A stretch of 41,737 nt of DNA from an uncultured Gammaproteobacteria bacterium (lineage in GTDB: Bacteria > Pseudomonadota > Gammaproteobacteria > DRJJ01), in assembly GCA_947258795.1 (NCBI GenBank), contig CAMYJU010000027.1, forward strand, positions 4,299 to 46,035. Reading direction: 5' to 3'. Under the pieces are notes generated by a model. That model was not told where the DNA came from. It was given only the letters and a program-made list of their open reading frames with translations, and made no database searches. The translations under genes and the position numbers were made by a program. This document shows positions 16,471-41,737 of this stretch, in pieces; position 1 is the stretch's first letter; every line of letters starts with the position of its first letter.

Positions 16471-17171
<701 letters not shown>

Positions 17172-19044: not shown

Positions 19045-21261
19045 ATGTATAAACCACAAAAACCCATGCTTACCGCACTGGCAATGTCGGTTTCACTGGC
19101 ATTTTCTACTGGCACTGCTTTTGCTGACGCTAAAGGAATGTCAAACCAGTTCTGGTGGCCTGAAAAACTGAACCTTGATCAATTGCGAGCGCATGATTCC
19201 GCATCCAATCCCTATGGTGACGATTTCAACTATACCAAGGCTTTCAACAGTGTTGACCTGAAAGCTTTGAAATCAGACATTGAGAAAACATTAACCACAT
19301 CTCAGGACTGGTGGCCGGCAGACTGGGGTCACTATGGTGGCCTGATGATCAGATCGGCATGGCACAGCGCTGGGACCTACCGTATCTATGATGGTCGCGG
19401 TGGTGCAGATGGCGGCCAGATACGTTATGAACCACAAAACAGTTGGCCGGATAATGCCAATCTCGATAAGGCTCGCAGATTACTGTGGCCGGTCAAGCAG
19501 AAATACGGTCGCAACGTCTCCTGGGCTGATCTTATGATCCTGGCCGGTAATGTTGCGCTGGAATCCATGGGTTTTGAAACCCTGGGTTTTGCCGGTGGCC
19601 GTGCCGATGACTGGGAAGCGGACCTGGTGTACTGGGGCGCAGAAACCAAATGGCTTGACAACGCTGAGCGCTATAAAGATGGCAAGTTGGAAAAGCCTCT
19701 GGCCGCAGTTCAAATGGGCCTGATCTATGTGAACCCGGAAGGCCCGAACGGCAATAATGATCCGCTTGCCGCAGCCAGAGACATGCGCGAATCCTTTGGC
19801 CGCATGGCGATGAATGACGAAGAGATCGTTGCACTTGTTGCCGGTGGTCATACCCTGGGCAAAGCCCATGGGGCCAAGTCTGCTGAATGTATCGGTGAAG
19901 AACCAGCAGCTGCCGGTATCGAAGAGCAGGGTTTTGGCTGGAAGAACAAGTGCGGTAAAGGCAATTCCGAAGACACAATGACCAGCGGCCTGGAAGGTGC
20001 CTGGACCCAAACCCCAACGGCCTGGTCAATTCTCTACCTGGACAACCTGTTGCGGTTCGAATGGAAGCTGACCAAGAGTCCCGCTGGGGCCCACCAGTGG
20101 ATTCCGACCGAAGCATCAGCAACAAACATGGTGCCGGATGCCCATATCAAGGGTAAACGACACGCGCCAATCATGTTTACAACCGATATAGCACTGAAAA
20201 AAGATCCAGGTTTCCGCAAGATCGCTGAACGTCTCTTAAAGAACCCGAAAGCATTTGACCAGGCCTTTGCCCGTGCATGGTTCAAGCTGACCCATCGTGA
20301 CCTGGGTCCCCGTGCACGCTATGCGGGGACGGGTGCCCCTAAACAGGTGTTTAAATGGCAGGATCCCATTCCGGCTGTCAATCATAAGTTAATTGGTGCG
20401 CAGGATATCGTGAAGCTGAAGTCGAAAATTTCAGACTCCGGGCTAAGCGTACCAGAACTGGTCAGGACAGCGTGGGCATCGGCTTCGACTTTCCGAGGTT
20501 CCGATATGCGCGGTGGTGCCAATGGCGCGCGTATACAACTGGCCCCACAGAAAGACTGGGCTGTCAATAACCCTGCCGAGCTGTCAAAAGTGCTGAATAA
20601 ACTGAAGAGTGTTCATAAGGCATTCAACAAGTCACTGAGTGGTGGTAAGAAAGTATCGCTGGCCGACGTAATTGTGCTAGGTGGTGCAGTAGCCATCGAG
20701 AAAGCAGCAAAGAAAGGCGGCTACAATGTGACGGTACCTTTCAAACCGGGCCGTATGGACGCCGCACAGGAGATGACTGATGTGAAATCATTTACTGTGC
20801 TGGAACCAACGGCTGACGCCTTCCGCAACTACTACAGTGCCAGCTATGGTACACCAACGGAAATGCTGGTGGAAAAGGCTGAGCTATTAACCCTGACTGT
20901 ACCGGAAATGACCGTACTGCTCGGTGGGATGCGTGCGCTGGGTGCCAACACGGGTGATTCCAGGCATGGTGTTTTCTCTGATCGTGCTGGCACCTTGAGT
21001 AATGACTTCTTTGTCAACCTGCTCGACATGTCGACCAAGTGGACAAAGTCATCCTCTGAAGGTATTTACCAAGGTCAAGACCGCAAGACAGGCAAGGTTA
21101 AGTGGACAGCGACTCCCGTTGATCTGATCTTCGGCTCAAACTCTGAGCTGCGTGCCGTTGCGGAAGTCTATGCGGCCAATGATACAGGTAAGAAGTTTGT
21201 AAATGACTTCGTTGCCGCGTGGACCAAGGTAATGACGGCGGATCGCTTTGATCTTGATTAG
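19045..21261 (+). CDS. Catalase-peroxidase with signal peptide (periplasmic KatG/KatP type)
   Basis: A 738-residue haem enzyme that decomposes hydrogen peroxide and can also oxidise organic donors. A Sec signal peptide covers residues 1-27 (hydrophobic core [12 protein letters not shown], cut after AFA), so the enzyme should be periplasmic, like KatP of enterohaemorrhagic E. coli. Distal residues R103, W106 and H107 (RSAWH), the Tyr of LIYVNPEGP and the Met of GRMAMND for the Trp-Tyr-Met crosslink, proximal H269 ([10 protein letters not shown]), and TPTAW and GPRARY are all present. The C-terminal non-catalytic domain is complete. A good AGGAG ribosome site precedes the ATG. OxyR lies divergently upstream and a second, cytoplasmic katG downstream. 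Confidence 0.94.
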
Positions 21262-21785: not shown

Positions 21786-24071
<2,286 letters not shown>

Positions 24072-24295: not shown

Positions 24296-24384
24296 TTGAT
24301 CATGTGATTTACATGCTCCACGAGCGGCTTTCCTGATTAATAAACAATAAGTCACAAAACATCTACTCCCATTCGATTGTTAAT
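24296..24384. repeat. Candidate attachment site B with flank
   Basis: CCATTCGATTGTTAAT at 24369-24384 differs at two positions from the 16-bp core at 16952 and 40055, and on the minus strand reads LTIEWE-stop. The 75 bases to its left (from TTGATCATGTGATTTACATG) are related to the left flank of site D (TTGATTATGTGATCTATGTG, CTCNACGAGCG, ATTAAT..CAATAAG). This shared flank makes chance unlikely. It separates the peroxide module from the Mrp module. Confidence 0.55.
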
Positions 24385-38576: not shown

Positions 38577-39123
38577 CTCAATAGAAAAAAATAGTTATGA
38601 CAACTTTTTGAGAGATGAGAGTGGAGCGTATTACAAGATTGCCCTATTGAAAATGAATATTCTTAATTAGCACTTACATGTAGGAGTACTAGAAAGATTA
38701 GCAGTCCTTTATCGCCACGTCCACGTTTATTACACAGCCAGGTAACGGTTTTTTACCTTTACTATTTCAAATGACTACTCTGGAGTAGTGGCCTCTGATC
38801 ATCATCCTAATCTGAATGTCATGTAAACCGAATCCCAATCGCGGCCTCTCAACGTATTAACAAACGGAATGGTTGAGTTTGTAAAGTGTCAGTCGAACAG
38901 GTCCATTTTGACGATGCGATTCAAGCTCTCGGCCTGCTCATTTTATAATTTAATTAAAAAGCCCTACTCCCACTCAATTGTAAATGAGCTATTTTTCATG
39001 CTTTAACATCAATGGCTTATTATCACGGTTATGTGACGATACCATGAAAAATACCATGTTCAGAAATTGCTGGTTAATCGCCTGAAATGCGAGGCTATGA
39101 CGTACAGGTACTAGTTCAACAGT
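38577..39123. other. Intergenic region with attachment-like repeats
   Basis: Nearly 550 bases without a supported gene. The right part (38957-39066) is site C described separately. The left part is AT-rich; a minus-strand stretch at about 38890-38940 reads EQAESLNRIVKMDLFD-stop but has no start or context. No terminator was identified. Confidence 0.5.
38957..39066. repeat. Candidate attachment site C with arm repeat
   Basis: CCACTCAATTGTAAAT at 38970-38985 matches the core of sites A and D at 15 of 16 bases and reads TIEWE-stop on the minus strand. About 55 bases to the right lies ACCATGAAAAATACCATG (39041-39058). The whole 110-bp block is related to 40041-40147, including AATGGCTTATT and CCATGAAAAATACCATG(T/C)TCAGAAA. 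The paired ATACCAT boxes look like integrase arm sites. Confidence 0.65.
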
Positions 39124-39441
39124 TTAGGATTCATCATCATCCGATACGTGAATTTTTAGCAACCGCTCGCTACGCCAGACACGAACAATTCTCACCTTCT
39201 GCAAATCGTGTCGGTACACAATGCGAAACGGCGGATGGATGAGTTCTCGCAGGATGGGTTGATTGAACTCGGGCACGACCCGGCCCATATCTGGATGATC
39301 GGTCAGGGACTGGATGCGCTGAAAGACTTCGTTCACCAGCCTCTCCCCGACCTCGGGCACTCCCTGTTCTTCATACCAGGTTCGCACATCTTCAAGATCG
39401 AGCAAGGCGGATTCCGCGAAACTGATCGCCGTCCGTGGCAT
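39124..39441 (-). CDS. ParE/RelE-type toxin
   Basis: A 105-residue protein of the ParE/RelE superfamily: SFAESALLDLEDVRTWYEEQ, a LVNEVFQRIQSLTDHPDMGR helix-and-loop and the terminal RELIHPPFRIVYRHD with VRIVRVWRSERLL strands. ParE poisons gyrase, while RelE cuts mRNA at the ribosome; the sequence alone does not say which. It begins 4 bp after the antitoxin stop on the same strand. Confidence 0.88.
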   Translation of the reverse strand: MPRTAISFAESALLDLEDVRTWYEEQGVPEVGERLVNEVFQRIQSLTDHPDMGRVVPEFNQPILRELIHPPFRIVYRHDLQKVRIVRVWRSERLLKIHVSDDDES

Positions 39442-39445
39442 GACG

Positions 39446-39715
39446 TTATTTCAGGCCAAGCCGCACACGGGCTTCGTCGAGGGAAACCTCGCGCCCTCCC
39501 TCCAGATCCGCCAGGCCCGCGACCACTGCCCGCATGAACTCCCGCTCTTCCTCAGCTTTTTCGTAATCGGAAACTGACTGGACCACCGCCACACCCCGGC
39601 CGCGGCTGGTGAGCAGCACGGGCCGGTGCGCCTCGGTCATGTGCTTCACCACACGCCCCGGGTTCACCTTCAGATCCGTCAAGGGAACCAAATCCTCGGA
39701 AAATTTGATAGTCAT
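39446..39715 (-). CDS. Phd/YefM-type antitoxin
   Basis: An 89-residue antitoxin. The N-terminal half (FSEDLVPLTDLKVNPGRVVK, then PVLLTSRGRGVAVVQSVSDYE) is the Phd/YefM DNA-binding fold, and the acidic helical C-terminus would cover the toxin. ATG 39715 has GGAG six bases upstream; the frame is open further (to 39883) but that part lacks a ribosome site. The protein probably represses its own operon. Confidence 0.88.
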   Translation of the reverse strand: MTIKFSEDLVPLTDLKVNPGRVVKHMTEAHRPVLLTSRGRGVAVVQSVSDYEKAEEEREFMRAVVAGLADLEGGREVSLDEARVRLGLK

Positions 39716-39897
39716 GATTAACTCCAAAAAGACCTTTATTCGGCACTCAGAATAGCACCTGTTATATGAGCTTTCAAGATGTCTGTTAATGCAGAATGGG
39801 ATTAAGAGCTGGGGATCAGGCATCGTGCAAAGTGATGCCTCGGCACAAAACAGGATCAAGGAATGGTGAGCATAGATCGGCAACCGGGTGGCTCCCC

Positions 39898-39918
39898 GAT
39901 ACCATCAACAATACCATC
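39898..39918. repeat. ATACCAT paired box (left arm of site D)
   Basis: ATACCATCAACAATACCATC, two ATACCATC copies 12 bases apart. The same paired arrangement with ATACCAT/GCCAT occurs at 39041-39058 and 40124-40141. This copy is about 150 bp left of the site D core. Confidence 0.5.
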
Positions 39919-39980
39919 AGAAATGAGGACTACCCGACCAGGCTTAGACAAATAATTGATATTCAATGTTCGCTAACTCA

Positions 39981-40147
39981 TTGATTATGTGATCTATGTG
40001 CTCAACGAGCGTATTTACTACTTATTAATCAATAAGCTATTAAAGCCCCTACTCCCACTCGATTGTAAATAAGCCATTTTTCTATTTTATATTCAATGGC
40101 TTATTTTCCTGCTAAACGGTAATGCCATGAAAAATACCATGCTCAGA
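39981..40147. repeat. Candidate attachment site D with flanks
   Basis: The core CCACTCGATTGTAAAT (40055-40070) is identical to that of site A beside tadA. The left flank from 39981 is related to the left flank of site B; the right flank to 40147, with GCCATGAAAAATACCATG at 40124-40141, is related to site C. Having arm-like repeats on both sides, it resembles a junction between tandem elements. The rest of the 39884-40266 gap shows no gene. Confidence 0.65.
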
Positions 40148-40266
40148 AACTTCTCCAAAATGCCCGGAAGTTCGCCAATTGAACGCTGCCACACGACACC
40201 CTAGACCACCTTCCGGATTTGACTTCCAGGCGCATCCTTCCTGTTTCTGCAGCTGATGGATCACCT

Positions 40267-41493
40267 TTAACCGGTTGCGCGCACATGCCCCTGCACGGCC
40301 TCCCGAACAAACCGGGCCGCAACATTGTCATCAACCTCGACGAGTTGCCCAATCTGCTCGGTCACATCATCAACCTTATTCAATCTGGCCGCAGCGTCCA
40401 TCGCACGATCATAGGCCTCCACCACATCGACGCTGGTCACCTCGTAACCCCACCCCTCACTCAACCAGCGAAGGGCAGCTATTGCCGATCCGAGGGCAAA
40501 TGCCGGTTCCGAGTCAAGGTAATCCCTGGCCGCCCTGGTCAGGGTTTTTGGATCACAGGGACTCCGGTTGGCCAGTTCCAATGCCAGATCATAAAACCCG
40601 AGTTCCTTGGCCGTCGCAAACCACTTCCCCTCTTCACCAGGAGTTGTGGCGATGAGGTCTGACAGAATCTGCGATTTATCCTTCATTGGATAGCGTTTTG
40701 CCACTGAGCGAAACCGGGCGATATAGGAATTACCCACCGCAGCACTCAATCCGTAGCGGCGGTAGGCCTCCTCATACAGGCCGGATGAGATCAGGATCTG
40801 CTCGCAGGCCTGGTCGATCACGGAATCAGGCTCGTTCAGTCCCCGCGAGGCTTCGGCATACCGGACTGCCTCCGCCTTCCTGCCCATGGCCAGGAGTGCT
40901 TCTACGCCATAGCGACGGTAATGCCAGGACGGATATCGCGGCAGTTCCAACAGATCGAGCAACTCACCGTAGCGACCTGACTCCAAAAGACAAGACAGAC
41001 ACGCCGTCGCGCCGTGGAAATAGCCACCGGGGCTTGGATCTGACCAACAGGATCGCAACGTGGATACCAACTCGTCCGCCCAGCGGCCGGCGACTTCAGT
41101 AGAGCCACAGATCTCACCCCATCGGTCACTCACCGGGCTGAGGTAGTCGACACCATCATCCTCCATTGCCTGCCAGAGCCGGTCAAGCCAATTACTACGG
41201 GTTTTCTCATCTGCAGGCGCATTAACGACAATCGGTATCAAATCAACCAGCGTCTTGTTGACCGCTGATCCCAGCGCACCACTGGAGCTATCCACGTGTT
41301 CCAGCGCCGGCCAGATCTTTTCCATCAGACGGACAGCGCCCTCTGCGCCAATCAGGGGATCTTTCTTTGCGACTTTCTTGATTTCGGAAACAGCTTCTCG
41401 AAGACGCTGGCACGCCAGCCTTGATGCCTTCCAGCTATAAGCGCCAGACCGGAATCGTGCTGGAAAGGACCACTTATGCGCGCTACGAGCCAT
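40267..41493 (-). CDS. Helical repeat protein of unknown function
   Basis: A 408-residue soluble, almost entirely alpha-helical protein. It starts ARSAHKWSFPARFRSGAYSW and continues with REAVSEIKKVAKKDP, AVRLMEKIWPALEHVDSSSG, GRWADELVSTLR, FHGATACLSCLLESGRYGEL and ATTPGEEGKWFATAKELGFY, a pattern like TPR/ARM-type repeats. I believe related proteins of this length are widespread and unnamed. ATG 41493 follows GAGGG; the in-frame TTG at 41502 is less likely. It begins 11 bp after the antitoxin-like gene upstream, so the two may form an operon with a toxin lying beyond the window. No catalytic motif is seen. Confidence 0.75.
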   Translation of the reverse strand: MARSAHKWSFPARFRSGAYSWKASRLACQRLREAVSEIKKVAKKDPLIGAEGAVRLMEKIWPALEHVDSSSGALGSAVNKTLVDLIPIVVNAPADEKTRSNWLDRLWQAMEDDGVDYLSPVSDRWGEICGSTEVAGRWADELVSTLRSCWSDPSPGGYFHGATACLSCLLESGRYGELLDLLELPRYPSWHYRRYGVEALLAMGRKAEAVRYAEASRGLNEPDSVIDQACEQILISSGLYEEAYRRYGLSAAVGNSYIARFRSVAKRYPMKDKSQILSDLIATTPGEEGKWFATAKELGFYDLALELANRSPCDPKTLTRAARDYLDSEPAFALGSAIAALRWLSEGWGYEVTSVDVVEAYDRAMDAAARLNKVDDVTEQIGQLVEVDDNVAARFVREAVQGHVRATG

Positions 41494-41504
41494 TGCCCTC
41501 AAAC

Positions 41505-41737
41505 TCAGGCAGCAATGGGTTTGGCTTTCTCAATCCGTGCTCGCCGCTTTGGTGTATTTAGCGCTTTCCACAGCTCGTTGCGCTGCTGCAGATTCAACCA
41601 GAAATCAGCGGTATTCCCGAATACGGTCGCCAGCATCAATGCCGTATCAGCCGTGATTGCACGGCGGTTGGTACATAACTCATTGACGGTTTTTCGACTG
41701 ACCCCCATCGCTTCTGCCAGCTGGCCCTGAGTCAGCG
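41505..41737 (-). CDS. HigA-like XRE antitoxin (partial, cut by window end)
   Basis: The last 77 codons of an XRE-family regulator. The helix-turn-helix reads LTQGQLAEAMGVSRKTVNEL, followed by NRRAITADTALMLATVFGNT and ADFWLNLQQRNELWKA, the hallmark of HigA/VapI antitoxins. The frame runs out of the window, so the start and the expected upstream higB toxin lie beyond 41737. The apparent ATG at 41708 is inside the HTH and is not the start. Confidence 0.88.
   Translation of the reverse strand, partial: LTQGQLAEAMGVSRKTVNELCTNRRAITADTALMLATVFGNTADFWLNLQQRNELWKALNTPKRRARIEKAKPIAA

Follow-up and report, generated by a model that had tools for sequence, protein, structure and literature searches.

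GIsul2 carries three attachment (att) sites, and its integrase both excises the integrase-less CR2-sul2 unit and inserts it at the 3′ end of guaA, as reported by Zhang et al. 2022 (PMC9376610). Cis-mobilizable elements (CIMEs) are defined, in an IME review (PMC5704250), as decay products. Here we describe a compact unit that can be compared with both. It lies in a 41,737-nucleotide stretch of DNA from an uncultured gammaproteobacterium, which we call the window (bases 4299-46035 of contig C27 in a genome of 3.36 Mb; the right end of the window is the end of the contig). The unit spans 38966-40050, between two sites named C and D, and holds a ParE-Phd toxin-antitoxin (TA) pair. Judging from its sequence, we think it likely that this att-bounded unit is non-autonomous and that an integrase of the GIsul2 family moves it in trans.

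A first-pass annotation of this DNA had proposed that C and D are related over about 110 bp and enclose only the ParE-Phd pair, and both statements hold. C and D are direct repeats consisting of a core and an arm of ~110 bp, with 80% identity (E ~4e-20 in a small database); the similarity begins at the core and extends rightward. With its limits refined to 1085 bp, the unit and its right-hand boundary comprise the following features:

38966-39082, plus strand: left end at site C, made up of a guaA-type core CTACTCCCACTCAATTGTAAAT and the arm (profile score 90.6 bits; genome-wide E=6.6e-25).
39039-39057, plus strand: paired arm motif ATACCATGAAAAATACCAT of the left end at C (motif scan; same position in the 24-site alignment).
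39124-39441, minus strand: ParE-family toxin of 105 aa (PF05016, 2.3e-16).
39446-39715, minus strand: Phd/YefM-family antitoxin of 89 aa, the upstream gene of the operon (PF02604, 5.4e-15; TIGR01552).
39899-39917, plus strand: a further paired arm motif, ATACCATCAACAATACCAT, close to the right end; core D lies ~151 bp to its right (motif scan).
39981-40050, plus strand: right end, with a 56-bp match of 78.6% to 24296-24351, left of site B.
40051-40167, plus strand: site D, core and left end of the next unit (115.3 bits; genome-wide E=9.4e-32).

The paired arm motif ATACCATSAAMAATACCAT occurs three times in the window, against 0.01 expected. At both C and D the core GAGTGGGAGTAG lies on the minus strand, and it agrees with the core at the guaA 3′ end (GAGTGGGA). 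The cargo is a single operon, Phd first and then ParE, 4 bp apart; with toxin and antitoxin in one operon, it is predicted to be a type II TA module. A survey of open reading frames (ORFs) and Pfam domains found neither an integrase nor transfer genes in the unit.

With the CR2-sul2 unit of GIsul2, as described in PMC9376610, the window unit shares the left end, the core, the guaA 3′ target, the lack of an integrase of its own, the two att sites and the tandem placement; the conserved left end found upstream of sul2 is present here as well. The two differ in cargo (sul2, a glmM remnant and rcr2 in 3.3 kb, versus ParE-Phd in 1.1 kb) and in the right end, which is of the TGCCAG type in CR2-sul2 whereas the window unit has only an arm pair at -151. 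GIsul2, ICERspD18B (PMC7775301) and their relatives also target guaA, and we detected the left end in the Rheinheimera D18 record; however, these elements carry a P4-type integrase of ~435-444 aa together with transfer genes, and the window unit has neither. CIMEs resemble it in keeping att sites without integration or transfer genes and in tandem accretion, and the window unit indeed has att sites and no integrase. CIMEs are decay products by definition, though, while most small units at guaA look like regular, recurrent modules.

Toxin-antitoxin cassettes of integrons are likewise single-module units that form permuted tandem arrays and include many TA modules. They differ from the guaA units, which have conserved arm sites around a guaA core, and the array in the window has no integron integrase.

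An alignment of 24 sites revealed ~110 conserved positions, including the paired motif TACCATGAAAAATACCAT. The objection that the C/D repeat might be mere low-complexity similarity fails, given that the 110 bp of the D type recur in other families, the better matches within the class showing 83-92% identity over ~100 bp. The end profile matched 36 of 369 sampled genomes of the class (E<=1e-5), and the D query matched 3938 of 72,556 plasmid records and 1615 of 5426 E. coli genomes. In a phage collection the same query gave 7 matches, namely six contigs named Acinetobacter phage MD-2021a and one Salmonella genomic-island record; a phage origin was not upheld, with 0 stretches in an exact arm-pattern scan of viral contigs. 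Each of the four records that we inspected, the Salmonella one included, has a copy of the site upstream of sul2, with ISAba1 in between in two of them, and we take this copy, from its sequence, to be the attR region of GIsul2. Two further observations concern sul2. The ~110 bp that precede sul2, both at loci L089-L092 and in the collections of plasmids and E. coli genomes, are the left end of a guaA unit. An Acinetobacter baumannii plasmid (L091:4710-13328) bears consecutive units, sul2-CR2 and one of 5.3 kb that holds thymidylate synthase and CR2.

To describe the population of such units, we scanned a genome collection of 84,980 species for the exact arm pattern, which gave at least 117 stretches. 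The 170 loci scanned, mostly of 8 kb and not all from independent genomes, contained 201 sites of at least 25 bits in 149 loci; site and guaA end occurred together in 28 loci, in one orientation in 28/28. Units were delimited either by two sites or by a site and guaA. This yielded 74 distinct units of 0.7 to 16.6 kb in 25 DNA clusters, among which small units are over-represented because delimiting requires two boundaries within loci of mostly 8 kb. Eleven are sul2-CR2 units. Among the 63 others, 32 hold a TA module (VapBC, ParDE, HigBA or Gp49, HipBA, AbiE, zeta, TacA-type, ParE-Phd, or Phd), and five of these 32, counted by cluster, also carry a TOTE primase-helicase, Gabija or Wadjet system. 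A DUF4172-Fic protein (PADLOC SoFic) is found in 15 of the 63, an AAA_14/DUF4143 protein, a candidate defence ATPase (PADLOC candidate PDC-S01), in nine, and other cargo in seven. These labels derive from cluster representatives and DNA similarity, some from ORFs read by eye; no Pfam match was obtained for the L160 antitoxin, for the putative antitoxin next to the zeta toxin of L172 or for the L136 GNAT-like toxin. As a control, 74 ORFs from flanking DNA gave one PADLOC match at E<=1e-20, AbiEi. Among the best 25 of their 79 Pfam families, one was AbiEi_3, and rarer TA families may rank lower. The 74 came from 100 sampled ORFs after leaving out those of L055 and L057, which had been chosen for the TA pair, those of L082, whose genome is that of L057, and two from L014, a locus interrupted by runs of N.

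The right ends of these units are also patterned: 36 of 74 units show an arm pair in the 200 bp left of the right core, compared with 7 of 1460 control windows inside units. By pattern, 26 right ends are of type I (TACCAT pair near -90), 27 of type II (TGCCAG repeats beside the core) and 21 other or unclassed, several of which look by eye like single-arm versions of type I or II. Integrase-bearing elements beside guaA have like arm pairs at ~-150 and ~-103, as do several type II units.

Units of one cluster align end to end (2148/2146 bp at 93%, 823/822 bp at 96% and 3557/3554 bp at 87.5%). Among 13 hand-picked pairs, the unit was more alike than guaA in all nine with at least 490 bp of guaA aligned (for example 93.3 vs 76.3% and 87.5 vs 68.1%); of the other four, three had only 79-225 bp of guaA aligned and one had no guaA match. 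The order of units is permuted between loci, as in tadA-Fic-guaA (L051), tadA-Fic-zeta-Gp49-guaA (L172), VapBC-HipBA-guaA (L129) and tadA-HipBA-guaA (L180). The sul2-CR2 unit reaches guaA directly in Luteimonas, Brevundimonas and Alloalcanivorax loci (L151, L162, L192); the contig of a further locus, L191, from a Geobacteraceae bin, may be mis-binned. On these sequence comparisons, the results show that sister units have spread horizontally.

Within the window, the C-D unit belongs to a longer tandem array. Chance would give 0.53 copies of the 17-base guaA-type core, yet the window has four, a number that none of 100 shuffles attained. They lie at 16951 (A), 24368 (B), 38969 (C) and 40054 (D), and all four read as a guaA 3′ end, TIEWE-stop, on the minus strand. 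The remaining features of the array are:

16471-16941, minus strand: TadA, the gene beside guaA where no insert is present (NF008113, 9.7e-69).
16951-16967, plus strand: core of site A, marking the far end of the array at a distance of 10 bp from tadA (core scan).
24368-24384, plus strand: core of site B, its arm undetected at a profile score of 8.4 bits (core scan).
41505-41735, minus strand: HigA-family antitoxin, truncated at the contig end, which the next unit carries as cargo (TIGR02607, 3e-21, above cut-off).

The guaA gene itself lies at the edge of contig C21, its 3′ end toward the assembly break, and the C21 sequence left of guaA shows the TGCCAG-type right end of a unit. In two other genomes (G062 and G098), tadA and guaA are adjacent without an insert, with 7 and 34 bp between the BLAST ends. 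Given these empty junctions, and with tadA beside site A, everything from A to guaA is one block accreted at the guaA-tadA junction. Block A-B holds two tandem katG-like peroxidase genes, block B-C antiporter and ABC-transporter genes, and right of D there is at least one further unit, that with HigA. Three observations on this DNA stand by themselves: the katG-like genes (19045-21261 and 21909-24071) are ~73% alike in DNA over parts; a 411-aa ORF at 40267-41502, in the unit right of D, has no Pfam or NCBIfam match; and the window begins with an exact 57-bp direct repeat (1-57 and 170-226).

Based on this architecture, we propose that the C-D unit is complete although non-autonomous, with core and left arm at C, the ParE-Phd addiction module, and a right arm and core at D, and that, with several others, it forms a stack at the guaA 3′ end, between tadA at site A and guaA on C21. 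A GIsul2-type integrase, which would have to be supplied in trans since the unit has none, would recombine C with D into a circle of 1085 bp with arm pairs on both sides of one core, and the released circle could insert into any guaA-type core. The addiction module may counter loss of the stack. The first-pass annotation had suggested a minimal mobile unit that uses the attachment site of some larger island; for the family this is supported, because the left end is that of CR2-sul2 and units of 0.7-3.5 kb recur at guaA in shuffled order; this particular copy is, or was, presumably movable too.

Several results weigh against this proposal. We found no circle and no strain in which the C-D unit is precisely missing. 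In its own genome there is no GIsul2-family integrase at E<=1e-30, and the only three PF00589 matches are, by reading, XerC, XerD and an integron-type integrase on contig C39; the assembly breaks where the array meets guaA, a gap that could hide an integrase. Among 46 site-bearing genomes, 6 encode a protein that matches the Rheinheimera D18 integrase at 85-100% identity over most of its length (an identical copy in three of the six), and the other 40 have no GIsul2-type match, so that mobility in trans is unexplained for most arrays. The right end of the window unit, with its TACCAT pair at -151, falls in the class "other", neither of the two common types. Finally, the ParE-Phd cargo is a singleton, the unit that holds it having no relative among the 74 delimited units.

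The same TA pair is present in 19 of 369 genomes of the class, the own genome included, and the end profile was absent from the examined flanks of all 18 others (0/18), which also counts against the proposal; ParE-Phd as a standard cargo of these units was accordingly not upheld. The pair thus usually occurs elsewhere without the repeats; the first-pass annotation would have counted it against a mobile unit had the pair always lain in a different setting without them. In G020, a one-contig genome of another family, it is the sole insert between tadA and guaA (Phd 91% and ParE 73% identical), with a poor match to the core on the tadA side (10/17). This single case is consistent with a decayed insertion of the same type. 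In G020 a whole-genome search also found a GuaA C-terminal-like fragment with a stop, 59% identical (L055:6859-7194), at a distance of about 2.4 kb from the intact guaA.

Regarding integrases more generally, a search for PF00589 in a set of 14 genomes and, among the matches listed, in a set of 20, together with a local ORF search of the loci, found none that could be placed inside a small unit. Two integron-type integrases were seen along the way. The one on C39 of the own genome (L013) is broken by a run of N and followed by an apparent attC-like site and a cassette-like ORF; the other, in an uncultured gammaproteobacterium, lies directly left of an AbiE unit at guaA (L205:1468-2493).

Among other explanations, the one that survives best, though we regard it as unlikely, is that a larger element between C and D was deleted down to its addiction module and is now an immobile, decayed CIME; the first-pass annotation had named the residue of a deleted tandem island as its second alternative. 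The missing integrase and the atypical right end would fit such a history, and decay does occur in this array, because the arms of A and B are undetectable. C and D, however, both retain the full left-end sequence and arm pairs, and sister units of 0.7-2 kb, such as the 823/822-bp and 2148/2146-bp pairs, recur end to end across genomes, so that being small is a stable condition of such units and more than a sign of debris. It is considerably less probable that RecA-dependent homologous recombination between the 110-bp direct repeats shuffles the units in place of an integrase. The left ends are direct repeats, mostly 80-92% identical, as this would require, yet the borders of the units lie exactly at the core and the guaA stop codon, in one orientation at every locus where this could be seen, and homologous exchange alone would not put units at an otherwise empty guaA-tadA junction. 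That the TA pair is an ordinary gene insertion, fallen by chance between two old sites, is hardly credible: the same family stands in other surroundings in 17 of 18 other matching genomes, but comparable small units mostly consist of little more than a TA or defence gene, and the G020 pair is an insert at the very same junction. Mobilization in trans by a GIsul2-type integrase stays our preferred account of the C-D unit.

Att-bounded units without an integrase, and their mobilization by the GIsul2 integrase, were already known. In the open-licence literature we found no report of guaA units with these ends that carry TA or defence genes, which does not prove that none exists; new with respect to the literature searched is that the C-D unit and CR2-sul2 belong to a population of compact guaA units that lack an integrase and, for the most part, hold TA or defence cargo. 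A wider proposition, on which our judgement is evenly balanced, is that guaA of many Proteobacteria hosts a non-integron cassette system, with a standard left end, two standard right ends, TA or anti-phage cargo, GIsul2-family integrases acting in trans and tandem shuffling between guaA and tadA, and that sul2 spread world-wide as one such cassette, whose end lies upstream of sul2 on thousands of plasmids.

Until now, CR2-sul2 has been seen as a special case, linked to a rolling-circle-type CR element. Our data suggest instead that it is one member of a far larger population, that of minimal guaA units which ordinarily carry addiction and anti-phage modules. This gives a testable account of how a resistance gene acquired a mobile end, supplies an attachment-site grammar for genome searches, and offers a natural system for asking why TA modules pile up in arrays without an integrase.
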